IMG/VR virus record: IMGVR_UViG_3300033388_005972
Span: 1-38,812 of that record
Direction: 5' to 3' (one strand)
DNA length: 38,812 nucleotides
Source: a virus
Shown: in pieces, positions 224 through 34,800 of the stretch
How the letters are laid out: the number at the start of each line of letters is the position of its first letter
Numbering within the stretch: position 1 is the first letter of the stretch
Position numbers and translations under genes: made by a program
Notes under the pieces: generated by a model
Database searches by the model: none
What the model was told of the DNA's origin: nothing
Seen by the model: the letters and a program-made list of their open reading frames with translations, nothing else

Positions 224-969
224 ATGAAAACCCTAAGAGATCTCATGGCGAACACAAGCAAAACAAAAAAGAAGAGCACGCCCAAAGTAGGTGGGTGGAT
301 ACTTTACGAGGGCCCGTCTCAATTAGATGGGAAGCCCGTCGCGTCGTCGTGATAGCCACGCGTGGAAGCAAGAATTCTAAAACGGGTGATATGGTTCAAA
401 CTTGGATCCTTAGATCTGACGTGAAACCAACCGAAGCCGTAAAAACTGGAGAGGATGAAAGCATCTGCGGGGACTGCCCCCACCGTCACTTCCTTTCTGG
501 CGCGTGTTATGTTCAACCGTTCCAGGCGCCTAGATCTGTATGGGAAAAATACAAGCGGGGTGGCTATAGACACGCGACGGAAAGCGATTTTACCGAGCTT
601 AAAGAAATGAAGGTAAGAGCCGGATCTTATGGGGACCCTTCTGCGGTACCGCTTTGGGTTTGGGTGTCGTGCGGCGTGTCAACGGGATATTCGCGACAGT
701 GGCGGAATTTCACGGAACAATCACATTATTTAATGGCAAGCGTTATTTCAATCCGAGAGAAACGGGAGGCTAACGCGCTAGGGTTCAGGACGTTTCGCAT
801 GGCAAGCCCCGAAAGCCCTGTTGATCATGATGAAATAATTTGTCCTAGCGCTAGTGGGGTTTCATGCTTTGATTGTGGGCTATGTGCTGGATCTAGAATA
901 GGCGCGAAAAATATTGTAATAGAGGTTCATGGGGCAAGATCTAAAAGGGCCCTCGAAATCATCCAGTAG
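224..969 (+). CDS. Conserved phage Cys-rich protein of unknown function, interrupted by a frameshift
   Basis: Translation probably starts at ATG 224, after the purine-rich AAAAGAGAG. The frame encodes MKTLRDLMANTSKTKKK then VGGWILYEGPSQLDGKPV and hits TGA at 350-352. The expected continuation, VVVIAT then NSKTGDMVQTWILRSDV, is in the -1 frame from about 343 and runs to TAG at 967-969. Together they match my recollection of a widespread phage protein with the order WILY-GPS-LDG-P-IAT-NSKTGDM-TWILR followed by ICGDCPHR and CFDCGLCAG. The paired cysteines suggest zinc binding. The break lies in a GTCGCGTCGTCGTG tract with no X-XXY-YYZ slippery heptamer, so a sequencing error or a real lesion is likelier than programmed frameshifting. 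Function is unknown. Confidence 0.6.
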
Positions 970-973
970 CCAA

Positions 974-1022
974 GAGGGGGGAAGGGGGGACCTTTCCCCC
1001 TTTTCCCTTTTTCGATTTTTTG
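974..1022 (+). terminator. Rho-independent-type terminator
   Basis: Directly after the TAG at 969, a G-rich arm (GGGAAGGGGGG) is followed by CCTTT and a complementary CCCCCTTTTCCC arm, then T-rich sequence ending in a T6 run. This is the expected form of an intrinsic terminator for the plus-strand genes to its left. Confidence 0.55.
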
Positions 1023-1063
1023 TTTAACCCTCACAAAAATCACACACCAAATTTTGAGATGGG

Positions 1064-1127
1064 CTCCCCGCTGTGTAAGTTAGGGGAGGTTGCACTCGCG
1101 ACCTGGCGCGTTCCCATGCCAGATGGG
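1064..1127 (+). other. Structured leader with three short hairpins
   Basis: Three inverted repeats precede the 68-aa gene: CTCCCC (1064-1069) with GGGGAG (1083-1088); AGGTTGC (1087-1093) with GCGACCT (1098-1104), loop ACTC and one G-U pair; and CCCAT (1113-1117) with ATGGG (1123-1127). The first two share two bases, so they may compete. There is no following T run. It does not fold as a tRNA. It could be a structured 5' leader or a small RNA. Confidence 0.3.
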
Positions 1128-1147
1128 GACAGACGAAGGTGACGATT

Positions 1148-1354
1148 ATGATGGTGAAAATCTGCCCTATTGGGGTGGAGCCTGAAGAAGACGGAGACGG
1201 GTGGCGGGTGCAGCTTTATATTCACAGTAGTGTGGATGCTCGCTTTCTGATGGCACACTTGGGCAAAGAGCTGGCCTTATCATTTCCCCAAAGGACGCCT
1301 GCGGAGGTTCTGAATGTGATCGACAGTCACGTTGTGAACCCGGAGGATTTATAG
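1148..1354 (+). CDS. Small protein of unknown function upstream of the phosphoesterase
   Basis: This gene encodes 68 residues if started at ATG 1148, which sits 5 bases after AAGGTGA. ATG 1151 and an upstream GTG at 1139 are alternatives, but GTG 1139 overlaps the ribosome binding site itself. The sequence reads as a mixed alpha/beta small domain (MVKICPIGVEPEEDGDGW, then VQLYIHSSVDARFLMAHLG) with no membrane segment or metal cluster. It abuts the phosphoesterase gene: its TAG ends at 1354 and the next ATG starts at 1355, implying coupled translation. I do not recognise the family. Confidence 0.6.
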   Translation: MMVKICPIGVEPEEDGDGWRVQLYIHSSVDARFLMAHLGKELALSFPQRTPAEVLNVIDSHVVNPEDL

Positions 1355-11565: not shown

Positions 11566-12036
11566 ATGGCTAAGTCATATGTGGACAGAAAAGAACTTGG
11601 AGAGCTAATGGACTACGTGTCTATGCTCGGAGACAAGGCTGTGTCCGCCCTGAAAAGTGAAATATACGAGGACGCGGTGAAGGTTTTCCAGGAAAGCCAA
11701 GAGCAGGTGCCGGTGCGGTCTGGTGACCTGCGGTCCTCCGGCACCCTCGAAGTGGACGAGACGCCCAATTCCACCAGGATTGAAATATCCTACGATGAGA
11801 ACTATGCCATGACTGTTCATGAGAACGTCAAGCAGTATACCTTTAAGCACGGGAAGCTCAGCCATTATCTGGCCAGACCGTTTAGGGCTATCTTCGAGGC
11901 CCCTGGGTACGATGATGACCTGGCGGACAGAGTCCTCAAAAGAGCAAAGAGCGGGAAGCGAAAAACGGCTGCCAGGGGAATGAAGGGCAAGCCTGGTCCA
12001 CTTGCCGATCCCAGCAAGAGTAGGCACAGCCGATGA
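11566..12036 (+). CDS. HK97 gp10-like neck / tail-completion protein
   Basis: This gene encodes 156 residues. VPVRSGDLRSSGTLEVDE and the later YAMTVHENVKQYTFKHGK match the HK97 gp10 family (VPV-TG-LR-S followed by YA-VHE) found between stopper and tail terminator genes. AGGAAG precedes ATG 11566. The last 30 residues are basic (RAKSGKRKTAARGMKGKPG). Its stop overlaps the tail-terminator start as ATGA. Confidence 0.8.
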   Translation: MAKSYVDRKELGELMDYVSMLGDKAVSALKSEIYEDAVKVFQESQEQVPVRSGDLRSSGTLEVDETPNSTRIEISYDENYAMTVHENVKQYTFKHGKLSHYLARPFRAIFEAPGYDDDLADRVLKRAKSGKRKTAARGMKGKPGPLADPSKSRHSR

Positions 12037-12764
12037 CCGTTCAGCCAGACCTCGATGTCGCAACATATTTAAGCGCGACGCTCCCCCAGCTAACAACAGG
12101 AGACAATCTGTTTGTTGGCCCCATGCGCCCGTATGCCAACACGGCACAAGGCGGCGGCATGCCGAGGAACGCTATATTCTGCATCCAGCTTGAGGGCAGA
12201 AGGCCCCAGACGTTCATGAATTGCTCCAGTGCTGGCTACCAGTGGCACGCTTTAAGGTACCCTAACGTACAGATATCCATAAGGATGGACCCGTATAAGT
12301 TTGCATACGGCAGGAACCTTGGCTTTCTCATCGTAGGGGCACTGCAGCGAAACACCTTTAATGACCTATATGTTGACTCTCAGATAAATGATGGCTCTCC
12401 CAACTATCTGGGCCAGGACGAAGATGGAGACCACCTGTGGTCCATCAACGTTGAGCTGACTTACGAGTTTTTCAACAGGTATGTTTATTTTGGCATTGGC
12501 CCAACTGGGAGCAGCGGCGCTGCCTTCATCGAGGCACTTGCCAGCAAGGACTACAGCGGCTTTCGAGATAGAACCTTCACTCTTGTTACAGGGGCGGGAG
12601 AGAAGATGTACTATGCGTTCCCAGAGTCATTTGCCGATATCGGCACATTGGCCTTCAGCACGCCTTTTTCTTTAACTTCAACCGCTACTGTAAACGGCAT
12701 ATTGTACAATCTGTACGAGTCGGATGCAGAAGCACTTGGATCTGTGACGGTAAACGTTACATAG
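12033..12764 (+). CDS. Tail terminator fused to a fibre-type beta module
   Basis: This is a 243-residue protein. Residues 1-145 follow the phage minor-capsid / tail-terminator pattern: FCIQLEGRRPQTFMN, then RYPNVQISIRMDPYKFAYGR, which forms the ring stopping tail-tube growth and joining head. Residues about 150-243 form an extra domain (YVYFGIGPTGSSGAAFIEAL, MYYAFPESF, YNLYESDAEALGSVTVNV) that resembles a beta module seen in phage tail fibres and is also recognisable at the C-terminus of the fibre gene at 32548-33315. Terminators of this type are normally about 130-150 residues, so the fusion nearly doubles the size. The extra domain would decorate the head-tail neck. Confidence 0.72.
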   Translation: MTVQPDLDVATYLSATLPQLTTGDNLFVGPMRPYANTAQGGGMPRNAIFCIQLEGRRPQTFMNCSSAGYQWHALRYPNVQISIRMDPYKFAYGRNLGFLIVGALQRNTFNDLYVDSQINDGSPNYLGQDEDGDHLWSINVELTYEFFNRYVYFGIGPTGSSGAAFIEALASKDYSGFRDRTFTLVTGAGEKMYYAFPESFADIGTLAFSTPFSLTSTATVNGILYNLYESDAEALGSVTVNVT

Positions 12765-12771
12765 CATTTTG

Positions 12772-12861
12772 CCTAGGAAGTGGGTTTCTGCTTTGCTAGG
12801 TTAAACTTGGGGTGTTGGTCGTCCCCCCCTGTCGGCCAGTGCAGCATTCTGCTGCCACCCC
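12772..12861 (+). other. Two inverted repeats before the tail tube gene
   Basis: The 165-base gap between tail terminator and tail tube genes carries CCTAG (12772-12776) with CTAGG (12796-12800), then GGGGTG (12809-12814) with CACCCC (12856-12861), the latter enclosing a small GCAG-CATT-CTGC hairpin. There is no T tract, so they are not typical terminators. A leader structure or processing site before a highly expressed gene is possible. No convincing promoter was found. Confidence 0.35.
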
Positions 12862-12929
12862 ATCTTCATTACAGTAGGGGATTTTGTCCTTAGACAACTA
12901 TGGGGATAGGACCCCGAAGGAGATTGAAG

Positions 12930-13520
12930 ATGGCAGCTATAGCAGGACGTTTTGGAGAATTTTGGGCATCGTTTAACTACAGCGGAGGGCCGCCCTTAAC
13001 CACATTCGAAAGCGTGACGGCGGGGGCAACATCGGGCTTAACCTTTAACAACCCAACGACGGCAACCCCGGTTATCCCCGGTATTGTCGAGCCTCTTTGT
13101 TCACTAGTGGATGTGTCTGTTTCAGGAAACGTCGACGAGCTTGAGACGACAGTTCACAATGATTGCACGTTTACAGCAGGCGCAAGTGGCGGCACTGGAG
13201 TGGCACCTACCCACGGAACGGCGAGAACCTATATCTCGAATTTCCATGATGAGACAGCAGATGTTTCCTGTAGGTACGACGAGGCAGATGAGTGTCAAGA
13301 GTATTTGCTTATCGCAGCGTTCAACAGCCTGTTGTTTCATTTTTGGTATATTCCAGATTCGTCGACATCGGTATTGTTAGGCACGCAGAAGGTTATCTGG
13401 GGAGATGCGTTCTCCACCAGTTTCAGCCCGTCAAGTCCGCTTGATGACACTACGTCGGTTGATTTTTCATTCCGTCTAAGTGGATCACAGTACGCAACCA
13501 TGTCTGCAGCGGTAGACTAG
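12930..13520 (+). CDS. Major tail tube protein
   Basis: ATG 12930 is taken because AAGGAG lies 7 bases upstream; the in-frame ATG at 12900 lacks a ribosome binding site. The 196-residue product is beta-rich with the tail-tube pattern VDVSVSGNVDELETTVHND, RTYISNFHDETADVSCRYDE and a final VDFSFRLSGSQYATMS. The position before the chaperone genes and the strong Shine-Dalgarno support the hexamer-ring tube subunit. It lies between structured gaps on both sides. Confidence 0.8.
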   Translation: MAAIAGRFGEFWASFNYSGGPPLTTFESVTAGATSGLTFNNPTTATPVIPGIVEPLCSLVDVSVSGNVDELETTVHNDCTFTAGASGGTGVAPTHGTARTYISNFHDETADVSCRYDEADECQEYLLIAAFNSLLFHFWYIPDSSTSVLLGTQKVIWGDAFSTSFSPSSPLDDTTSVDFSFRLSGSQYATMSAAVD

Positions 13521-14063: not shown

Positions 14064-14500
14064 AGATAGCCTGCGAGATCGGTCTTCATCCTGAGCAATT
14101 TTGGGGCCTGCCGGACCAGATAGGGACCGGCTTGACGTTGAAGGAGTTCAGGGTGATGGTCGAAGCGCACGAAGAAAAATCAAAGCGAGACATGGAACTC
14201 CTGGCATGGACGTGCGCCAACCTCATGAACTGTTGGGTTAAGAAGAAGATTAAACCCAAAGACCTTCTTCCTAGAAATTTCAGGAAACCTGAATCGATTG
14301 AGTCGAACGAGTATGTGCAGTCTCGGTTCCGAGATAGTCAGTCCTTGGGCGACTTCAAGGCAATGATGCGGGCGCGCCAGGAAAAAGAAGAAGAAAACAT
14401 CGGCATTCCCATCGAGGAAGAAGATGATTCGGTCCTGATTGTTCTGGACCGTGAGATTGAGGACTTCCTACCTGATGAGGGGGTCTACGATGACGACTAA
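14015..14500 (+). CDS. Tail assembly chaperone, frameshift extension (lambda T-like)
   Basis: This is the -1 frame entered at the slippery site and read to TAA 14498-14500. The fused product (13623-14500) would have about 292 residues. The extension opens FRPKPGHQRFDFDELVKIAC and continues EIGLHPEQFWGLPDQIG, the typical start of the second chaperone domain, followed by a helical region and an acidic end. Translating it only from the TTG at 14132 would lose the conserved FDELVKIAC portion, so frameshifting is the better reading. The tape measure start overlaps its end by 11 bases. Confidence 0.8.
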   Translation, partial: FRPKPGHQRFDFDELVKIACEIGLHPEQFWGLPDQIGTGLTLKEFRVMVEAHEEKSKRDMELLAWTCANLMNCWVKKKIKPKDLLPRNFRKPESIESNEYVQSRFRDSQSLGDFKAMMRARQEKEEENIGIPIEEEDDSVLIVLDREIEDFLPDEGVYDDD

Positions 14501-17500
14501 CGCCACAATTGAAATAGTCGCCAAGGCCAATCTGAAGGCGCTCCAGCGAGTTGTCAAAACGCTGGACGCCATCGATTCACGGATGGCCCATGTTTCCCAG
14601 GCGCTGGAGAAGATGTCGTCGGGGTTCAGCAAGGCGGACGGCAAGGTCGCCAAGACCGGCAAGCAGGTCGACAAGACGAAGAAGTCGGTTAAGGGGCTAA
14701 GCGCCGCGCTGAGCGATGCGGAGAAGAACCTTCTTAAAAGCGTTTCCTCGAACCTTAAGGCCGTGCAACAGATAGACAAGGCGGCGGTCAAGGAGAGGGC
14801 CAAGCTCGCAAAGTCCAAGGCTGCGCTGGACAACAAGCTCCTCAGGGAGAAGACAGCAGCGGAGAAGAGGGCAGCCAGGGAAGCTTCAGCCCTGCGAAAG
14901 AAAGAGATCGCTGAGGAAAAGGCCGCCCACCGTAAAAAAGCAATGATGCTCAAGCAGCGCATGGCTTTGATCCGAAACAGCAACCGCGCAGAACAGGCTG
15001 CTCACAATGCCAGGAGGGCGAGACTCTCCGAAATGAGTGGGGCGCTCAGTGGTGTGAACCAGCACCTTAAGAGCCTTTCACGTGGCTTTGCGGTGATGAG
15101 CATCGCGTCAACCGCTGCAATCCTGGCCGTCACAAAGGTCTCCAAGGACTTTGAGGCATCCCTGGTTCGCTCGGCGACAGTTGCAACGGGCACAAGCAAT
15201 GATTTCGAGAGCAACTTCTCTCGGATGTCGAAGTCCGCCATAGACCTAGCAAACCAGACAGAGCATACGGCAGCAGCCGTCGGCGAGGGCATGAACTTCA
15301 TGGCTATGGCCGGGTTTAATGCCAGCGATATCATATCAGCGATGCCCACGGTGGCCAAACTTGCAACGGCAGCCAACCTGTCCATGGCGGATTCCGCCAA
15401 CATCGTCACCAATGCGATGGCTGGGTTCGGCATCACATCAGACAAGATAATGGAGGAGTTCGAGGCTGATACCGGCAAGGTTATGTCCAGGACCAGGGCA
15501 ACAGAAATCCTCGCCCAGAAAACCAAGGATGCCGCTAACGTCCTTGTCGGTGCGTTTACATCATCGAACGTCAGCCTAACGGACTTGAACGAGTCTCTGA
15601 AGATCGCTGGCCCGGTTGCCAAGCAGCTCAATATCCCAATCGAAGACCTCGCTGCGACCATTGGCCTTCTGGGTAACGTGGGTGTGCGCGGCACGGCCGC
15701 TGGCACTGGCCTTAAGCGAGCCATGGTCGCGATGGTTAAGCCATCGAAGCAGGCCGCTGTCGCTATGGGCAAGCTTGGGATATCTTCCGACATGGTTTCC
15801 GGGAAGGATGGCTTTCTAAAGGTTGTTGCGGCCCTTGAGGCGCAAAGAGACAAAATGAAGGAGACAGGCCGGGAGGCACTGTTCCTTAGCCGCGTGTTCA
15901 AGGTGTTCGCGGAAAGGGCTGGCCCGCAAATGGCAGCCCTCGTGGCCCAAGGCACGCAGTCTCTTGTCAGTCTGTCCTCCGGCATAGAGAAAGCCAAGCA
16001 AGAAGACCTTGCAAGCATTATCGAAGAGAGGCAGCTCAACACTTTGAGCGGCGCACTCAACAAGCTCGTGAGCAACATCAGGACGTTCGCGAAGGAACTT
16101 GGGGACACGTTGCTCCCTGGGATAAAGGAGCTTGTTAAAGACTTTGAGGACGCTGCCGTAGGAGCCAGGAACCTCGACGACAGGATTAAAGACTTCATGG
16201 TGACTGCTGCCAAGGTTGGAGCATTCGGCGGAGGCATGGGGTTTGTCGCAGTTAAGATCCTTGACGTTGCGGCGTCGTTAACCATCGCTAGCCTTGGGTT
16301 CCAGCAGTTAGCCCACGTGACCAAGATGACTAAAATGGCCATGGTCGCCGTTGCCGCGAAGGGTGTCCTCGCTGGAGGCATTCTTGTCGGAGCGTTCGCT
16401 GGTACTCTCGCGATAATGGAAGATGTTTCAGGAAAAACCTACGACATCGCAGGTGCCTTTGAGAACGCTTTCGCTGAGTCGACCGAGAGCATTAAGAACA
16501 TGTTCATCAACCTGTTCCAGTTTATAGCGAGCATGATAACATGGGTGCTCGCCCCGCTTAAGCTCTTTGGCCTGGACCTTGAGAAGAGGCTTAACGACTT
16601 CCTCCTGGACACAAAAGACCTCGTCATCGATGTAACAATAGATGACGCCAAGCTTAATGCTGTGATGAAGGAAGGGGTCCTTGGAGAGCTGCCCAAGGAC
16701 AAAGAGGAGGCCAAGAGAAAAGCCCAGGATATAGTCACGGGGGGCATGGTCCAGAACGCCAAAAAAGCTCTTGAGCTATCGATTGCAATCGACAAGGAAG
16801 ACGTCGCTGGAATAGCTAAGCTACAGAAAAAGATAGCGGGCTTGGCTAAAAAAGTGGCGAAGGCGGAGCATAAGGGGCAAAAGAGTCGCAAAAAGCAATT
16901 GGACGCTGAGCTTGATTCTACAAGAAAGCAACTTAAGGCAGCCTTAGCGCTGAGAAAGGTTCGTCAAGCTGAAGCAAAGCAAAGGATGAGCGCAGAGGCG
17001 CTCAGCGCAGAGGCCCTAAGCAGGGCGAAGAAATCACTCTTCGACAAAGAGGGAAGGGCGAAGGGGGAAGTCAGGACAAAATTGTCCGCTGGCGGCGCGG
17101 TTGTAACTACTACATCTGGAGCCGAACTCTTCGCCAACCTAGAAAAGGCGATCCCGGCTCAAGCCGAAGCTCTGTCGCGCCAGATAACACTGCAGGCTGA
17201 ACTTGCAAGGAAGGGAGACGAAAAAGCCAAGCCGAAGGTGGAGGTCCCAGACTTCGTCGCCGCCGCAGAAGATGCCACAGCAAAGCTCAAGTCGCTGGCC
17301 AAGGAGCTAGAGAACCTCACCAATAAAATAGCTGACTCAATCCGGGCCTACGATAAATCATTCCTTGCCTTCGAAAACAGCGCAAAGTCCCTTGACCTGA
17401 AACTCAGGATGGAGGGGTCAGAGTTTAAAGCGGTCAACCAGGAGATGCTCAAGCTCATGGGTGACATTGAGGGCATTGCTTCAGGTAAGGATAACCTGAA

Positions 17501-17963
17501 GGCGATGGCCAAGCAAATCCGAGCGCTCCAGCTTAACGAGATAGAACTCAAGAGAAACACCCTTGCACTTCAGAAAGACAAGCTGACGCCCGAAAAGGAA
17601 GAAGAACTCAACAAGGAGAGAAGCCGGGTAGATGATAACTATACGACGAGGATGGACGAGGTCGATGAGGAAGCCAAGAAACTCGCCGGAACCTTCGTAG
17701 ACTTAAGGATTGAGGGTCTTGCCGAGAAGCTCTCAAAGGTGGAAGCGAGCAAAAGGTCCGAGGCGCTTGCAGAGGCATTCGAGTTCCTTCAGGAGACATT
17801 GAAAGAGACGGACATTGAGCTTAAAAAGAGCAAGCTAGTAGAGGCCATAGCCGATACGGCCAAGAAGGCGGACGAGGCTGCGCTTGAATGGGATAAAGTC
17901 AAGGTAATAGACCCGCAGGTTGAGATAAAAGGAGTTCTTCAAGGGCATGGAGCAACCCGTTAA
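14490..17963 (+). CDS. Tail tape measure protein, N-terminal part
   Basis: ATG 14490 is chosen over two upstream in-frame ATGs because GAGGGGG lies just before it. The 1157-residue product is Lys/Ala-rich coiled coil at the start (AEKRAAREASALRKKEIAEE), then a TP901-type tape-measure core at about 215-430 (FEASLVRSATVATGTSNDFE, MNFMAMAGFNASDIISAMPT), a hydrophobic segment near 590-650 and a long coiled-coil C-terminal half with a small SAEAL tandem repeat. It sets tail length. It stops at 17963, where a second ORF with strong tape-measure character has already begun, so the tape measure appears split. Confidence 0.88.
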   Translation: MTTNATIEIVAKANLKALQRVVKTLDAIDSRMAHVSQALEKMSSGFSKADGKVAKTGKQVDKTKKSVKGLSAALSDAEKNLLKSVSSNLKAVQQIDKAAVKERAKLAKSKAALDNKLLREKTAAEKRAAREASALRKKEIAEEKAAHRKKAMMLKQRMALIRNSNRAEQAAHNARRARLSEMSGALSGVNQHLKSLSRGFAVMSIASTAAILAVTKVSKDFEASLVRSATVATGTSNDFESNFSRMSKSAIDLANQTEHTAAAVGEGMNFMAMAGFNASDIISAMPTVAKLATAANLSMADSANIVTNAMAGFGITSDKIMEEFEADTGKVMSRTRATEILAQKTKDAANVLVGAFTSSNVSLTDLNESLKIAGPVAKQLNIPIEDLAATIGLLGNVGVRGTAAGTGLKRAMVAMVKPSKQAAVAMGKLGISSDMVSGKDGFLKVVAALEAQRDKMKETGREALFLSRVFKVFAERAGPQMAALVAQGTQSLVSLSSGIEKAKQEDLASIIEERQLNTLSGALNKLVSNIRTFAKELGDTLLPGIKELVKDFEDAAVGARNLDDRIKDFMVTAAKVGAFGGGMGFVAVKILDVAASLTIASLGFQQLAHVTKMTKMAMVAVAAKGVLAGGILVGAFAGTLAIMEDVSGKTYDIAGAFENAFAESTESIKNMFINLFQFIASMITWVLAPLKLFGLDLEKRLNDFLLDTKDLVIDVTIDDAKLNAVMKEGVLGELPKDKEEAKRKAQDIVTGGMVQNAKKALELSIAIDKEDVAGIAKLQKKIAGLAKKVAKAEHKGQKSRKKQLDAELDSTRKQLKAALALRKVRQAEAKQRMSAEALSAEALSRAKKSLFDKEGRAKGEVRTKLSAGGAVVTTTSGAELFANLEKAIPAQAEALSRQITLQAELARKGDEKAKPKVEVPDFVAAAEDATAKLKSLAKELENLTNKIADSIRAYDKSFLAFENSAKSLDLKLRMEGSEFKAVNQEMLKLMGDIEGIASGKDNLKAMAKQIRALQLNEIELKRNTLALQKDKLTPEKEEELNKERSRVDDNYTTRMDEVDEEAKKLAGTFVDLRIEGLAEKLSKVEASKRSEALAEAFEFLQETLKETDIELKKSKLVEAIADTAKKADEAALEWDKVKVIDPQVEIKGVLQGHGATR

Positions 17964-20235
17964 GGAGGGGCTGGCGAGTGGACTGAAGACTGCTCTCTCC
18001 AAGGCAAGTGGCGAGATAGGTGGAGCCGTTTCCGGGCTGCTTGGCAGCGTGGGCACCATGATCGGGACAGCGTTATCCCCTTGGCTTAAGGGCCTGCAGC
18101 CAATGATACAAAACTTCCTTGGGAATGTTGGCGCTGCGTTGACTTCGGGCTTAGGGCCATTGGCCTTCTGGGGGGGGGTCCTCGGCACTGCCCTCGGCTT
18201 CATCATCACGGAATACGCCCCCATTATTGGTGCGGCGATTGGCACGCTGGTTGGGGCGGTCGTCGAGATGGTGCCGATCCTAGGCGAGGCGATAAACAAA
18301 GCCGCCAAAGCCATTGTTGACGGTGCGAAGAAGACTGCCAGAGCTATATTTGACAGCACTGCCGGTGCGTTCAAGAAAATGGCCGACTCCCTGGCCGACC
18401 AAATGGACAAGGTGGTTGAAGACCAAAGGCTTTCCGACGCGGTAAGGATGGGTGGGCAGTTTAGCCTTCCGGCAGGGGCGATACTCGGCGTAGTGGCAGC
18501 TATTTCTGCAGGTCTTGCGGGCCTCGGTATGATCCTTCTATGGCCGCTAGTAGATGCCATCAACTTGCTGATGCTGACCATGGGCTTTTTAGTCAGCTCG
18601 GCCGCAGCCAATGTGGTAAGCGCCATTGGAATGGTTGCAAGCGCCGCTTTCACTATTGTATTCTTTCCCATTATCGTAGCGATTGGGTTCATGGTGGTAT
18701 CCATTGCTAATGCGATATATCAGTTGGCGACAGTTATCGCCACACCAATCGCCGCCATAGTCACTGTCATCGCCGCTGTCATCGGAGGCATCGCCACTTT
18801 CATCGGAGGCCTTGCAACTGTAATACTTGCTCCGGTCCTGCTTCTTTTCGCTGCCATTGCCATGGTCATCTTTGGTGTCGCAGGAGTGGTTCTAGCCGGT
18901 CTCGGTGTCCTTACTGCTGCGCTCGGTGGATTCTTTGCGGCTCTCTTGTTCAAAGACCCCAAGTTTGCTGATGATGATTATGTGTCTCAGCGCGGAAGGG
19001 CGCAAGATGCGCTTTCCGTGTCTATTGATAAGATCGTCATGGCTCTTGACCCGCTGTGGGAGGCTGCGATGCCTCTGGTCGGGTTGTTTGACTACTTGGT
19101 AGATGTTCTTCTCCCCTTGGCGGACTCATTTGCGGGCGGCTCTAGCATGTCAACCGTTCTCTTCGAGGGCTTCAAAATGCTGGCAGTCGGAATCGGGATG
19201 CTGCTTCTTGGAATTGGGTATTTCGTGACGGGGCTTTTGGATATCCTCGTCGGAACGCTGGGCAATCCGCTCCACCAGTTCATGGGCAACCTCATGCAAG
19301 CCATAGCGCAGGGCGTGCTCGATACCATTGCTATGATGATGCGCGGGCTTGCGGACATGTTCACCAAAATAGACGACCTAATACCGGGGTCAGCTATTTT
19401 TTCGGACGTAACGACTGGACTAAACAACGCAGCAGATGACGCCGAAGCTGCAGCCGACGGCCTTGTTCCAGACTTCGATGAGTTAAACCAATCTATCATA
19501 GACGGGCTCGAAGGGATGAAGCCAGACCTTGACGGTATGCACGCAGCCTTCCAGGAGCTTCTTGCCCTATCTGAAGAAGACGCCAGGGCAAGAGGCAATG
19601 CTCTTGCTGACCAGGCAGAGACGGACAAAAACGCGAAAGAGTTCGGTGAAAGCCTCTCCAATGTTCCCTCCGGGTTCAAGGTCGCTCTCCACAGGTTTAA
19701 GGCAATGGATGCAGCGGGCGGAGTGTCGATGGGTGGGAGGGGCAACATCCTCGACCTGTCCAACAATGAATACTTTGGCCGCATGTCCAACGCGTTTTCT
19801 GCGGCCATGTCCGGTGCTGGCATTTTCGGAGCTACGCCAACTGATGACGTGCTAGATAAGCTAGCAGAAGCAACGGACCCTCAAAGGTGGAGTTCCGTGC
19901 TGGACGGGGTTGCCGCTACGTTCGGAGAGGCCGCAAGGGAGGTGGCCGACCTGGCCAAGCGCATGCTGGACCCCGATGCGATGCCTGGAGGAAGTGGACC
20001 GCTGGGCACAGCGTTCATGGGCAAGAGCCGGGCCACTGAATCTCTAATGGGCGGCAACAGCATGGTCATCAACATCAATGAAATGAGCATTGCTGATGCT
20101 ACAAACCCAGAGCAGCTTGCGAACATGATTGCAGAAAAATCTAGCCGTGACAGAATGGCCCAAGCTGGTACACCGTTCCCAAGTCATCAGTCAGGCTCTG
20201 GCTGGTGGGGCGGAAACGAAGGCGGGAGGGGGTGA
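17947..20235 (+). CDS. Tail tape measure protein, second ORF with hydrophobic domain
   Basis: This ORF encodes 762 residues from ATG 17947, overlapping the first tape-measure ORF by 17 bases in the +1 frame. AAGGAG lies 12 bases upstream, a long but usable spacing. Residues about 70-115 and 175-335 are long runs of hydrophobic helices (VVEMVPILGEAINKAAKAIV, LSAYL-free stretches of A, I, V, G and L), like the membrane-inserting part of tape measures that helps pass DNA across the inner membrane. The remainder is helical and acidic. There is a run of nine G at 18170-18178. Either two coupled proteins, a +1 frameshift fusion or an assembly indel would explain the split. Confidence 0.8.
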   Translation: MEQPVKEGLASGLKTALSKASGEIGGAVSGLLGSVGTMIGTALSPWLKGLQPMIQNFLGNVGAALTSGLGPLAFWGGVLGTALGFIITEYAPIIGAAIGTLVGAVVEMVPILGEAINKAAKAIVDGAKKTARAIFDSTAGAFKKMADSLADQMDKVVEDQRLSDAVRMGGQFSLPAGAILGVVAAISAGLAGLGMILLWPLVDAINLLMLTMGFLVSSAAANVVSAIGMVASAAFTIVFFPIIVAIGFMVVSIANAIYQLATVIATPIAAIVTVIAAVIGGIATFIGGLATVILAPVLLLFAAIAMVIFGVAGVVLAGLGVLTAALGGFFAALLFKDPKFADDDYVSQRGRAQDALSVSIDKIVMALDPLWEAAMPLVGLFDYLVDVLLPLADSFAGGSSMSTVLFEGFKMLAVGIGMLLLGIGYFVTGLLDILVGTLGNPLHQFMGNLMQAIAQGVLDTIAMMMRGLADMFTKIDDLIPGSAIFSDVTTGLNNAADDAEAAADGLVPDFDELNQSIIDGLEGMKPDLDGMHAAFQELLALSEEDARARGNALADQAETDKNAKEFGESLSNVPSGFKVALHRFKAMDAAGGVSMGGRGNILDLSNNEYFGRMSNAFSAAMSGAGIFGATPTDDVLDKLAEATDPQRWSSVLDGVAATFGEAAREVADLAKRMLDPDAMPGGSGPLGTAFMGKSRATESLMGGNSMVININEMSIADATNPEQLANMIAEKSSRDRMAQAGTPFPSHQSGSGWWGGNEGGRG

Positions 20236-30579: not shown

Positions 30580-32548
30580 AGTAATTACGGGGGATATAGT
30601 TTTATTGGAGCTGGTCCTCGTTAATGGAGACACTAGCCGTTTTCCGCAAGCTGAAATATACGATGACGCAGGGGCTGCTATCGGTGCAAGCCCTGTCGAT
30701 TTGTCCTCTGTTTCGGGTGGTCTTTACCAGGGCACTTTTGTGGCCCCAGCAGTCGGAAACTACAGCATCATTTATATTACTTATGGCGACGTCGCACACA
30801 CCATTGTGGTCGCTGGTATCGAGCGTGTATCTGAACACATGCGTGTTACAAATCTTGTGCAGGAGGATATCTGGAACGAGATTCTTCCTGGGGCATATGG
30901 GGTCGGGACGGCAGGCTCATACCTAGACGACATGGTAAGCAGCCGTGCAGCACCCTTGGATATCCTCAGTGATTTGATCCCATTTCCTGGGGCCGACATC
31001 GACGCTAGCATCAGCTCTAGAAGCAGTCACACCGCAGCCGACGTAGATGCTATTCTGTCTGCTGTTCACGGTGCCGGCAACTGGGAGGGAGATACCATTA
31101 CGCAGCAGGATGTGCGTGATGCTATGAAACTGGCACCCACGGCTGGGGCACCGGCAGCGGGCTCAGTCGATACGCATCTGGATACGATTGAAACCGACAC
31201 TGCGGCAATGGAGCCCCTGGTTACGACAAATTTGGACGCCACGATATCCAGCAGAGGGACTGCAGATCCCGGTGACAACATGGGCCTTACGGCTGCGGGT
31301 GTTGACGCGGTTTGGGACGAACTCTTAGCGGGCCATCTTGGTGTCGGCAGTGTTGGCGAGGCCCTGAATGACGCATCTAGTGGAGCAGGCGTTGACTGGA
31401 CAGTATCAGAGCGAAGTCAGATGCGGCAGGCATTGGGCATTACGGGTGCTACACTGGCCACCGCAGCCGGTGAGCTTCAGGATGTTCTTGCTGATACGGC
31501 AGCAATAGAGCCCCTGGTCACGGCGAATGTTGACGCGACCATTAGCTCTCGGTCCACATTGGTCCAGGCGGATATTTTATCCGATGCCACCCCGTTTCCC
31601 GGTGCGGATATTGACGCCAGCATTTCTTCAAGAAGCAGCCATACGGCTGCGGACGTAGATGCTTTGGTTACAGCCAGTCATGGCGCAGGATCTTACCAAA
31701 CGGCTACAGGATTTGCGGTTGCCGGTGACAATATGGGGTTAACAGCAGCCGGTATCGACGGTATTTGGGATGAGGCCCTTGCCGGACATCTTGGCGCGGG
31801 TTCGACAGGAGAAGCCCTGGACAACGCGAGCGCTGGGGGATCTACCCCGGCAGCTATATCAACAGCAGTCTGGTCCGAGGCAATACCCGGAGCGTTTGCA
31901 GCCGGGCAGGCTGGGCAAGTTGTTGGCAATAACCTGGATGCAACCATTGCGTCGAGGGCAGCCCCGGCAGATAACATGGGTCTTACGGCAGCAGCCACTG
32001 CTGCAGTAGACGTAGAGCTTACCGCGACACATGGCGCAGGTGCATGGACCGGCGGAGCTGGTCTCACCCAGCAGAACGTTCGGGATGCTATGAAACTCGC
32101 CCCAACGGCAGGTGCCCCAGCGGCAGGGTCAGTAGACACGCATTTGGATGACATCGAAGCGGACACTAGCGCGATGCAGCCAACAATCGCCACCAACCTG
32201 GATGCTACGGTTTCCAGCAGGGCGACACCTGGGGATGCAATGAGCATTGACGCGGCTGGTGTGGATGCGATTTTCGACGAGTCCCTTGCTGGCCATCTTG
32301 GCGCAGGCACTGCGGGTCAAGCACTTGCTGCCGCATTCGGAAACGCAGGGGGTAACGTCAGAGATGACGCTCTCACCTACGATGCCAACAACAGACCGTT
32401 GACCCTCAGAAGACGCATCTTTCCAGATGCAGCTACAGCCAACGCCTCCACACCTGGGGGTGCTGGCGAGGGTGAACTCATCACAGTCACCATTTCGGCA
32501 ACGCAGATTGATGCAGCGAAGTGGGAGACACTGCTAAGGACGATCTAA
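30572..32548 (+). CDS. Repeat-rich tail fibre protein
   Basis: ATG 30572 follows GGAGG by 5 bases; the longer in-frame start lacks one. The 658-residue product opens with a small beta domain (IEVITGDIVLLELVLVNGDT, SGGLYQGTFVAPAVGNYSII). It continues with Ala/Gly/Asp-rich helical repeats: LDATISSR segments, NMGLTAAGVDAVWDELLAGH with LGAGS-GEAL, and DAMKLAPTAGAPAAGSVDTH. It ends with NRPLTLRRRIFPDAATANAS and a short beta tail. Such repeats occur in long fibre shafts of phages. No enzymatic motif was seen. Confidence 0.7.
   Translation: MIEVITGDIVLLELVLVNGDTSRFPQAEIYDDAGAAIGASPVDLSSVSGGLYQGTFVAPAVGNYSIIYITYGDVAHTIVVAGIERVSEHMRVTNLVQEDIWNEILPGAYGVGTAGSYLDDMVSSRAAPLDILSDLIPFPGADIDASISSRSSHTAADVDAILSAVHGAGNWEGDTITQQDVRDAMKLAPTAGAPAAGSVDTHLDTIETDTAAMEPLVTTNLDATISSRGTADPGDNMGLTAAGVDAVWDELLAGHLGVGSVGEALNDASSGAGVDWTVSERSQMRQALGITGATLATAAGELQDVLADTAAIEPLVTANVDATISSRSTLVQADILSDATPFPGADIDASISSRSSHTAADVDALVTASHGAGSYQTATGFAVAGDNMGLTAAGIDGIWDEALAGHLGAGSTGEALDNASAGGSTPAAISTAVWSEAIPGAFAAGQAGQVVGNNLDATIASRAAPADNMGLTAAATAAVDVELTATHGAGAWTGGAGLTQQNVRDAMKLAPTAGAPAAGSVDTHLDDIEADTSAMQPTIATNLDATVSSRATPGDAMSIDAAGVDAIFDESLAGHLGAGTAGQALAAAFGNAGGNVRDDALTYDANNRPLTLRRRIFPDAATANASTPGGAGEGELITVTISATQIDAAKWETLLRTI
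30978..32160 (+). repeat. Diverged intragenic repeats in fibre gene
   Basis: Three repeat types recur inside the gene: PFPGADIDASISSRSSHTAA near 30978 and 31591; DAMKLAPTAGAPAAGSVDTH near 31117 and 32085; and DNMGLTAAG-DxxWDExLAGHLG near 31276, 31728 and a variant near 32239. Protein copies are nearly identical while codons differ widely at silent positions. Confidence 0.7.
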
Positions 32549-33315
32549 TGGGTGTAAGCGGAATAGTCACAGGCGGAACGATTGTTGATCCATCGACGGT
32601 CACAGTGGAGACTTGCGTCCAAGAACAGATCTCTGGCATCATCGCCGCAGACCCGAACCTGGTCGGCACCATCATTGAGGACTGTGCAGCCCCAGCCTTC
32701 GATATCACATCGTTCTCAGCCCTGGTCGTCTCATCGCTAGAGGTGGGGGATTCTGCTATAACGCCACCCTTCACCGCTTCGTACAACAGGTCTCCCACAA
32801 GTGCAGTCCTGACAGACGACGACGGAACACCGGCAAAGGACGTGACGGCAACTCCGCTATCGTTCAGCTCTGACGGCACCTTCACCAAGACGGCGAACAA
32901 CGCTACCGTGACCTTCACCCTAACGGCAAGCGATGCGGGCGGTCCCGACACAGCGCAGGCGGTGTTCACCTGGAGACCCTTGGTCTTCACGGGCATTACC
33001 GCTAACGCTGGACCATACACCGAAGCAGACGTTGAAGCGCTCATCACCCAGAACCTTGCGGCGACATCCGCATTCTCTGGCACGGTTGCTCCAGTCAACC
33101 AGTACATCGTCCATGCGTATCCGGCCAGCTATGGGGCATTGCTGCCCACCAACTTTGAAATAGGCTCCTTTGGCCCTGGCGACATGACCGAAGTGCAGGT
33201 GGCGCTTTCCGTTACGAACGCATTTGGAAACACCCAGGACTATCGCGTTGCACGTTCAGATAACCTTATTGACACAACCATCACCGGGCCGCTGGCCTTC
33301 ACGGTTATCCCCTAG
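32548..33315 (+). CDS. Tail fibre / structural protein with a C-terminal beta module
   Basis: ATG 32548 overlaps the preceding TAA (TAATG) and AAGGA lies upstream. The 255-residue product has an N-terminal segment (VSGIVTGGTIVDPSTVTVET), an Ig-like beta domain at about 45-150 (FDITSFSALVVSSLEVGDSA, ATVTFTLTASDAGGP) and a C-terminal module at about 155-255 (LVFTGITANAGPYTEADVEA, YIVHAYPASYG, VTNAFGNTQDYRVARSDN). The last module resembles the extra domain of the tail terminator. It is probably part of the fibre assembly. Confidence 0.62.
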   Translation: MGVSGIVTGGTIVDPSTVTVETCVQEQISGIIAADPNLVGTIIEDCAAPAFDITSFSALVVSSLEVGDSAITPPFTASYNRSPTSAVLTDDDGTPAKDVTATPLSFSSDGTFTKTANNATVTFTLTASDAGGPDTAQAVFTWRPLVFTGITANAGPYTEADVEALITQNLAATSAFSGTVAPVNQYIVHAYPASYGALLPTNFEIGSFGPGDMTEVQVALSVTNAFGNTQDYRVARSDNLIDTTITGPLAFTVIP

Positions 33316-33324
33316 GAGAATGTT

Positions 33325-34800
33325 ATGCCCACATTTGCAGGAGAACTGATTAATGCTGCCGTCGGCGTCGCATCCCTGAATGACACTGCATTGCGCGGAG
33401 GATATCGCGTCGTTGCTAACCTGGCGGAAAGAGATGCAATTGTCGGGACAGACTTCGATAAGACCGGCTGCCTGGTCCATGTTCAAGCGAACAAGACATC
33501 CTATGAGAGAACAGCAACTGGATGGGACGTGAAGGCGCAGGCTCCTCAGACGATGACATCCATCTATTACGGTACGGCAGGGGACGACGGGACTGGCGAC
33601 GGCACAACCGGAAACCCGTTTGCAACCCCCGCAAAAGCAGCCTCTACTGTCGCAGACGGCAGCGATGGGATCTTTTTAATCCGCCCTTTGGACGATGGAC
33701 CGTTTCCGGTCCCAGGGATAGTTAATATAACGCCAGCCCCTGGCGGGAACATCCAAATTGTTTTCATTGGAAACATCGAACAAACTCCAACAACGACAAT
33801 CCCTCTTCCCGTGTCAGCCTCAAAAGTTGCAGGGAAGCAATCACAATGGGAGGTGACCACCTCCGGTTTCACCGACCCCGTCACAACGGGATCTCACTGG
33901 TCCATAGATGGAGTTTCCGGGGCCGTTGATGATGATCTGCAGTATGGCTTAACCGGATTATCGCTTCCGAGTGTAAGTCCGACGCTGAAATGCGTCACGC
34001 GGTTCGGAGGGTTCCTTGGGTTCGGAGCGTATGATTTGCCCGTCTACCCGTTGTCAACGGTGTTTGAAACCGACGGGGAGAATACAGTCATTGGATCAAC
34101 GAACGAAGCAGTTAGAATAAAGTTTGTAGGCGTAAAGTTTGAAGATTCGCCAGGTCCAGCGACAAGTATAAAAAATTCAAAAGCCAATATGTATTCTGTT
34201 GACACCGTGGGGCTGCTTGGGAGTTTATCCGTGGTGGATTCGACCGCGTTTGTTCACGGAAATGTTGTCATCCCAGGATCGGCAGGTGGGAACGGGGGGC
34301 AGGTTGGGGGGATAGTTCGATTCATCAGCACGGGAGCAGGAGACTCCTATGTTTCTCGCGCAACGATTCAGCGAGATGTGACCGCTATATTTTCGCAGCA
34401 TATTTCACTGAGCAAGGACAGCGTTCTCCAAATTGGAGACACTGACTTTGAGAACGACGGAACCTATTGCATCCGTGCCGACAGGGGCAGGCATCGTGTT
34501 CTTTTCCTTGGTGATTCATCGATTGACCCGGCTGCATCCATACTCACATTTCTATTGGCAGGTCGGGCGTCGGAAGTGAATATTGAGATTTTAGCAGGAA
34601 CGACGTTGACGGGAGCGGTGACCCAATTTGGATTCGCCCTTACTGGACGGTCCTACCTGTCAGGGTCGGTGGCGGGGTCTTCGATTGTCGCCGGAGTTGC
34701 CGACGTGCGAGTTGGCGGTGCGGGAGACTTCGCCTATGCGTCGTTACCACAAAACGATTTTGCCGCCATCACGGGAGTTGGCGCAGTTGCGGAGACTTGA
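33325..34800 (+). CDS. Tail spike-like beta-helix protein
   Basis: The product has 491 residues, with AGGAG 7 bases before ATG. The N-terminal 70 residues (GYRVVANLAERDAIVGTDFD, SYERTATGW) form the small adaptor-type domain seen at the start of fibres. From about 75 a parallel beta-helix begins (IYYGTAGDDGTGDGTTGNPF, GIFLIRPLDDGPFPV) and runs to near the end with many short V/I/G repeats. No clear catalytic acid pair for polysaccharide cleavage is visible, though beta-helix spikes often have one. It is likely a second surface-binding or degrading appendage. Confidence 0.65.
   Translation: MPTFAGELINAAVGVASLNDTALRGGYRVVANLAERDAIVGTDFDKTGCLVHVQANKTSYERTATGWDVKAQAPQTMTSIYYGTAGDDGTGDGTTGNPFATPAKAASTVADGSDGIFLIRPLDDGPFPVPGIVNITPAPGGNIQIVFIGNIEQTPTTTIPLPVSASKVAGKQSQWEVTTSGFTDPVTTGSHWSIDGVSGAVDDDLQYGLTGLSLPSVSPTLKCVTRFGGFLGFGAYDLPVYPLSTVFETDGENTVIGSTNEAVRIKFVGVKFEDSPGPATSIKNSKANMYSVDTVGLLGSLSVVDSTAFVHGNVVIPGSAGGNGGQVGGIVRFISTGAGDSYVSRATIQRDVTAIFSQHISLSKDSVLQIGDTDFENDGTYCIRADRGRHRVLFLGDSSIDPAASILTFLLAGRASEVNIEILAGTTLTGAVTQFGFALTGRSYLSGSVAGSSIVAGVADVRVGGAGDFAYASLPQNDFAAITGVGAVAET

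Follow-up and report, generated by a model that had tools for sequence, protein, structure and literature searches.

The window, the whole 38,812-nucleotide stretch of viral DNA analysed here (IMG/VR record IMGVR_UViG_3300033388_005972), carries an ORF at 12033-12764 (+) encoding 243 amino acids, in which a tail-terminator domain is followed by a C-terminal module of about 95 residues. The boundary between the two lies at about residue 145-150. The fibre ORF at 32548-33315 encodes 255 residues. An earlier sequence-only reading had described the first ORF as a terminator fused to a fibre-type module; the coordinates of this ORF and every motif quoted were confirmed in the sequence, and the motifs quoted for the fibre are present too. 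The features are as follows.

11566-12036, + strand: HK97-gp10/Neck1-like gene (phrog_5 and PF04883, weak), with a 4-base overlap with the fusion gene
12033-12467, + strand: tail-terminator domain, residues 1-145 (end of the PF12691 stretch, element order in the AlphaFold2 model, Foldseek matches to known terminators, gene order)
12468-12761, + strand: C-terminal fibre-type module, residues 146-243 (fibre profile, E 5e-6; hhalign without the resident fibre family, E 8.5e-9; A5 profile; common BFVD neighbours)
12545-12929, + strand: approximate mosaic island, covering the 3' part of the module and the tail-tube gene's leader; phages with diverged neck and tube genes are near-identical here
12930-13520, + strand: tail-tube slot gene, with start and leader conserved in relatives and function assigned by position only
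32698-32967, + strand: stretch before the fibre module, beta-rich and possibly Ig-like (low-confidence model), apparently missing from the terminator fusion (alignment)
32968-33312, + strand: C-terminal module of the resident fibre, the window's other copy (fibre-side profiles, fibre model)

Genes in the window are ordered terminase, portal, protease, major head protein, head-tail adaptor, stopper/connector, gp10-like, fusion, tail-tube slot, chaperone-type tail gene and tape measure. The fusion gene, between the gp10/Neck1-like gene and the tail-tube gene (the latter assigned by position), is therefore where a tail terminator is usually found.

For the tail-tube slot gene, the probable start is 12930, preceded by AAGGAG; the start given by the ORF caller (12900) makes the product ten residues longer. 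One related phage has two similar adjacent genes at the tail-tube position (L025:210-809 and 819-1343, minus strand). Tape-measure similarity in the window (14439-20235) runs across two overlapping ORFs, 14439-17963 and 17947-20235.

PF12691 matched the fusion ORF, and no other, in each of four related records (per-genome E about 3e-4 to 3e-6). In the window E was about 2e-4, and relatives reached 3e-6; the match in the window stops at base 12467, the end of residue 145. Scores were 16.4 bits in the window and up to 22.9 in relatives, below the curated cut-off of 23.8, so the fusion protein is not filed as a PF12691 member. In an AlphaFold2 model of the fusion, made with nine relatives in the alignment (mean pLDDT 61, modest confidence), residues 5-141 form a helix, three strands, a helix and two strands, like gpU-like terminators; the gpU-like fold of residues 1-145 is a predicted one. 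Foldseek searches of the PDB with this model gave weak matches (E > 0.1) that were enriched in terminators, with terminators among the top ones. Matches in BFVD were clear and included both fibre-type proteins and extension-free terminators and tail completion proteins of 117-146 residues (E 8e-5 to 1e-3), such as the terminator of Arthrobacter phage Wheelbite (TMt 0.61). As these terminators lack the extension, the C-terminal part has been added and is no normal part of the fold. The fit of the first 145 residues to a tail terminator, as first read from the sequence, is borne out by gene order, the predicted fold and the exact end of the PF12691 match.

Direct comparison of the fusion protein with the resident fibre by BLASTP gave nothing meaningful, and hhalign of the two small families alone gave a probability of 0.1-0.3%, which is not significant. 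However, with a fibre-module profile built without the terminator, the terminator C-terminus was the only other ORF matched among the window's 389 (E 5.4e-6; next best 0.64). When the resident fibre family (P0002) was left out of the fibre modules, hhalign with the terminator-module profile gave a probability of 95.7% (E 8.5e-9, score 49.7). In controls against the full fibre set, 200 column shuffles peaked at 18.2 and the terminator domain itself scored 10.3. Profile searching thus places the homology of the module with fibres above both shuffles and window decoys.

Structure prediction of both C-termini agreed with this. The order of elements is equal in the two predicted modules, with a long strand on EKMYYAFP in the neck and QYIVHAYP in the fibre. 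The fibre model is of modest confidence (mean pLDDT 54), and the likeness was judged by strand order and structural neighbours; of the 17 fibre-model BFVD matches with E below 0.1, 14 were also within the top 50 of the fusion model. Profile homology, matching predicted secondary structure and common structural neighbours uphold the proposed fusion of a tail-terminator domain to one that is a homologue of fibre C-termini. The more specific proposal, that the module lines up with the C-terminus of the resident fibre, holds as homology via a wider family, beyond chance, but not as a pairwise alignment. On profile evidence, the neck module is a divergent member of a widespread C-terminal module of phage fibres (motif YxAYPASYG), and the resident fibre (32548-33315) is another member.

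Searching with tblastn led from the fibre to a gut phage protein and from there to gp28 of Tunturiibacter phage Tunturi_5, annotated as a tail fibre protein. A DNA pattern search for YxxxAYPASYG found 17 contigs, about 10 of them with the module, which in each case closes a fibre-like protein. It likewise comes last in 13 of 13 distinct fibre-type proteins, and the neck module has the same C-terminal location in the terminator fusion. The label 'fibre-type' is right insofar as all fibre-like proteins found to contain the module end with it.

The YxAYPASYG module (window 32968-33312, loci L035-L055) is widespread in phage fibre-like proteins including, by structure matches, those of crAss-like and jumbo phages. 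It is covered by no family in Pfam, PHROGs or NCBIfam, and no carbohydrate-binding or Ig family in these collections matched it; the Pfam phage Ig-like domains (Big_2, I-set, fn3) did not match. Solved structures searched by sequence included none matching the module or the fusion. A widespread fibre module, as yet unnamed by Pfam, PHROGs and NCBIfam, is thereby brought to light.

All 13 related contigs found in databases have the fusion intact, at 88-100% and about 50% identity, and it is therefore no assembly artefact. These contigs fall into two clades with about 50% protein identity. Tblastn against annotated phages gave no match to the fusion and one chance-level match only to its second-clade version. 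Bacterial genomes yielded no relative, and the terminator domain was unmatched in genomes with other fibre modules that were searched for terminators. The fusion is fixed in this small uncultured phage group. The sequence-only reading would have been refuted by an extra domain universal in the terminator family and devoid of fibre relatives; the domain is indeed present in all terminators found in this small family, but its fibre relatives are many.

Within each clade, the last 60-70 codons and the leader are about 86-100% identical in DNA, whereas most pairs have diverged in the terminator domain before this island and in the tube gene that comes next. Between the window and contig L003, dS was 0.04 in the adaptor, 1.78 in the connector, 2.23 in the gp10-like gene, 1.18 in the terminator domain, 0.22 in the module, 1.77 in the tube and 0.08 in the next tail gene. 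Until about base 550 of the gene, L003 tracks another contig, L005; beyond that point it tracks the window (99:3 versus 2:22 informative sites). The crossover, near 12583 (Fisher p 3e-19, computed at the best-fitting breakpoint), lies at about residue 170-185, off the exact domain boundary. It is clear that recombination took place inside the module. The dN/dS of the module (0.07-0.19) is low, indicating that it is kept functional.

Two other readings of these patterns were discarded. Synonymous constraint alone was dismissed as an explanation of the island, as L003 and L005 match each other over the terminator domain and not over the island. Stronger selection was rejected as the reason for the higher amino-acid identity of the module (58% versus 45%) because synonymous differences within clades are lower too; much of the extra identity is thus due to recent recombination.

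The leader (12765-12929) resembles a conserved structured RNA. It has a junction with a C7-loop hairpin, whose loop can base-pair with a run of G further downstream; a GGGG-CCCC hairpin lies immediately before the ribosome-binding site. All 41 of the proposed pairs form in each of four clade-2 sequences, with 7 further pair types (slid controls, approximately 50%). Covariation support is thin, as both partners change in one pair alone and the structure does not stand out from letter shuffles. A promoter/terminator scan of the leader and Rfam gave no match. Its 3' motif was detected solely in this phage group.

The stopper, terminator and tube touch each other in other phages (PMC10276861, PMC13033339). 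Here, the stopper, gp10-like, terminator-domain and tube genes diverged together and the 3' half of the module did not. A near-identical module end amid diverged neighbour genes is apparently outside their co-varying interfaces. This pattern of divergence suggests that the module is peripheral to the stopper-terminator-tube interfaces, and from the intragenic recombination it behaves as a separable appendage.

Terminators form a six-fold ring atop the tail tube, so that six modules would stand around the neck, pointing outward. The reading we favour, and consider rather probable, is that a tail terminator acquired, at its C-terminus, a module found at the C-termini of fibre proteins of other phages. 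Less certainly, the modules may form a peripheral decoration making weak contacts with glycans or another common component of the host surface, and the choice of receptor would stay with the tail-tip fibres. Our best guess at what the module does is weak adhesion; lactococcal and mycobacterial phages offer an analogy that makes glycan binding plausible. As a counterpoint to adhesion, the module is conserved and not hypervariable, and this is no less compatible with a structural role than with receptor binding. With a fibre-tip module at both ends of the tail (tip fibres and six-fold neck terminator), the virion might even attach along the cell surface at two points before ejection, a speculation that we think unlikely.

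Because the module is conserved (dN/dS 0.07-0.19) and not hypervariable, the main rival is a structural adaptor or brace, which would stabilise the head-tail joint or act as a protein docking platform. Its job in the fibre would be the same, namely to hold the spike protein encoded next (33325-34800). Both copies of the module, in the neck and in the resident fibre, are under strong purifying selection without hypervariability, a spike-like gene lies directly after the fibre gene and the module always sits at the C-terminus, a place open to a docking partner. Nevertheless, we take a brace to be a possible rather than a probable role, since the 3' half of the module recombines independently of the adjoining neck and tube genes, which is unexpected for an interface-fitted part, and related terminator structures work without the module.

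It has been argued that many phage Ig-like domains are of little or no benefit. That the module is likewise a promiscuous passenger, a mobile accretion domain, is improbable: a dN/dS of about 0.07-0.19 and retention in both clades mark it as maintained, despite its occurrence in very different phages and proteins, its intragenic recombination and the precedent of shuffled neck domains (PMC10684548).

The closest fibre module found is in a protein on the contig of another phage (L055), which matches the neck module over approximately 105 residues (E 1e-11) with a profile holding no neck sequence. L055 was retrieved by a pattern derived from the neck module, and the GExxYYAFP motif common to both is hence biased. 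In the module tree, neck modules group with the L055 fibre (support 85/85). An AU test does not reject a clade of neck and resident-fibre modules (p-AU 0.195) and is thus compatible with a recent internal duplication, in which the resident fibre gene of the same genome supplied the copy that became the neck module. Such copying is unsupported, as the closest module is from the fibre of another phage, to which the best tree joins the neck module, and as direct similarity between the neck and resident modules is insignificant; we regard it as very improbable. The chance that the last 95 residues are merely part of the terminator is negligible, for although pairwise scores on their own are not significant, this is already contradicted by profile scores far above shuffles and all window decoys, by structural neighbours common to both modules and by known terminators stopping where the module starts.

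The favoured reading, a terminator decorated with a fibre-tip module, concerns one of the most conserved and size-limited parts of the tail. Modular exchange of likely adhesion domains would reach the neck ring itself, with recombination within the module. Decoration of the virion has precedents. In mycobacteriophage Douge, Ig-like domains on the capsid and tail tube bind the host surface (PMC13033339); in lactococcal 936 phages, both the neck and the major tail protein bear carbohydrate-binding modules (PMC6669499). Host glycans are the ligands of such accessory neck and tube domains in both cases. The adaptor of marine phage R4C carries an Ig-like domain (PMC10276861), and neck proteins were already known to shuffle domains (PMC10684548). 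Neck decoration and neck-domain shuffling were therefore known beforehand. Literature searches in an open-access library turned up no earlier account of a fibre module on a terminator (one elsewhere is possible), and this terminator placement of a known kind of decoration is real and apparently unreported.

The fusion resembles tail terminators (lambda gpU, SPP1 gp17; PF12691, Phage_tail_terminator_6) in gene position, the predicted fold of residues 1-145 and a weak profile match there. It differs from them by the extra 95-residue C-terminal module and a score below the curated Pfam cut-off. With the C-terminal modules of fibres (Tunturi_5 gp28, crAss-like and metagenomic phage fibres) the neck module shares profile, YxA(Y/F)P motif, strand order and C-terminal position; it is, however, fused directly to a neck ring protein, the usual preceding domain is missing and the loop after the motif is shorter. 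The neck passage structure of lactococcal 936 and TP901-1 phages likewise places surface modules around the neck. In contrast, that structure is a separate protein of 500-900 amino acids with a BppU-like ring and a trimeric stalk, and the fusion, with its module on the terminator, does not have this architecture of separate protein, BppU-like N-domain, coiled stalk and carbohydrate-binding module. The decorations of the Douge capsid and tube, the 936 major tail protein and the R4C adaptor are, as here, accessory domains on a ring or tube protein of the virion, but their fold families and the ring proteins that carry them are other than those of this phage group.
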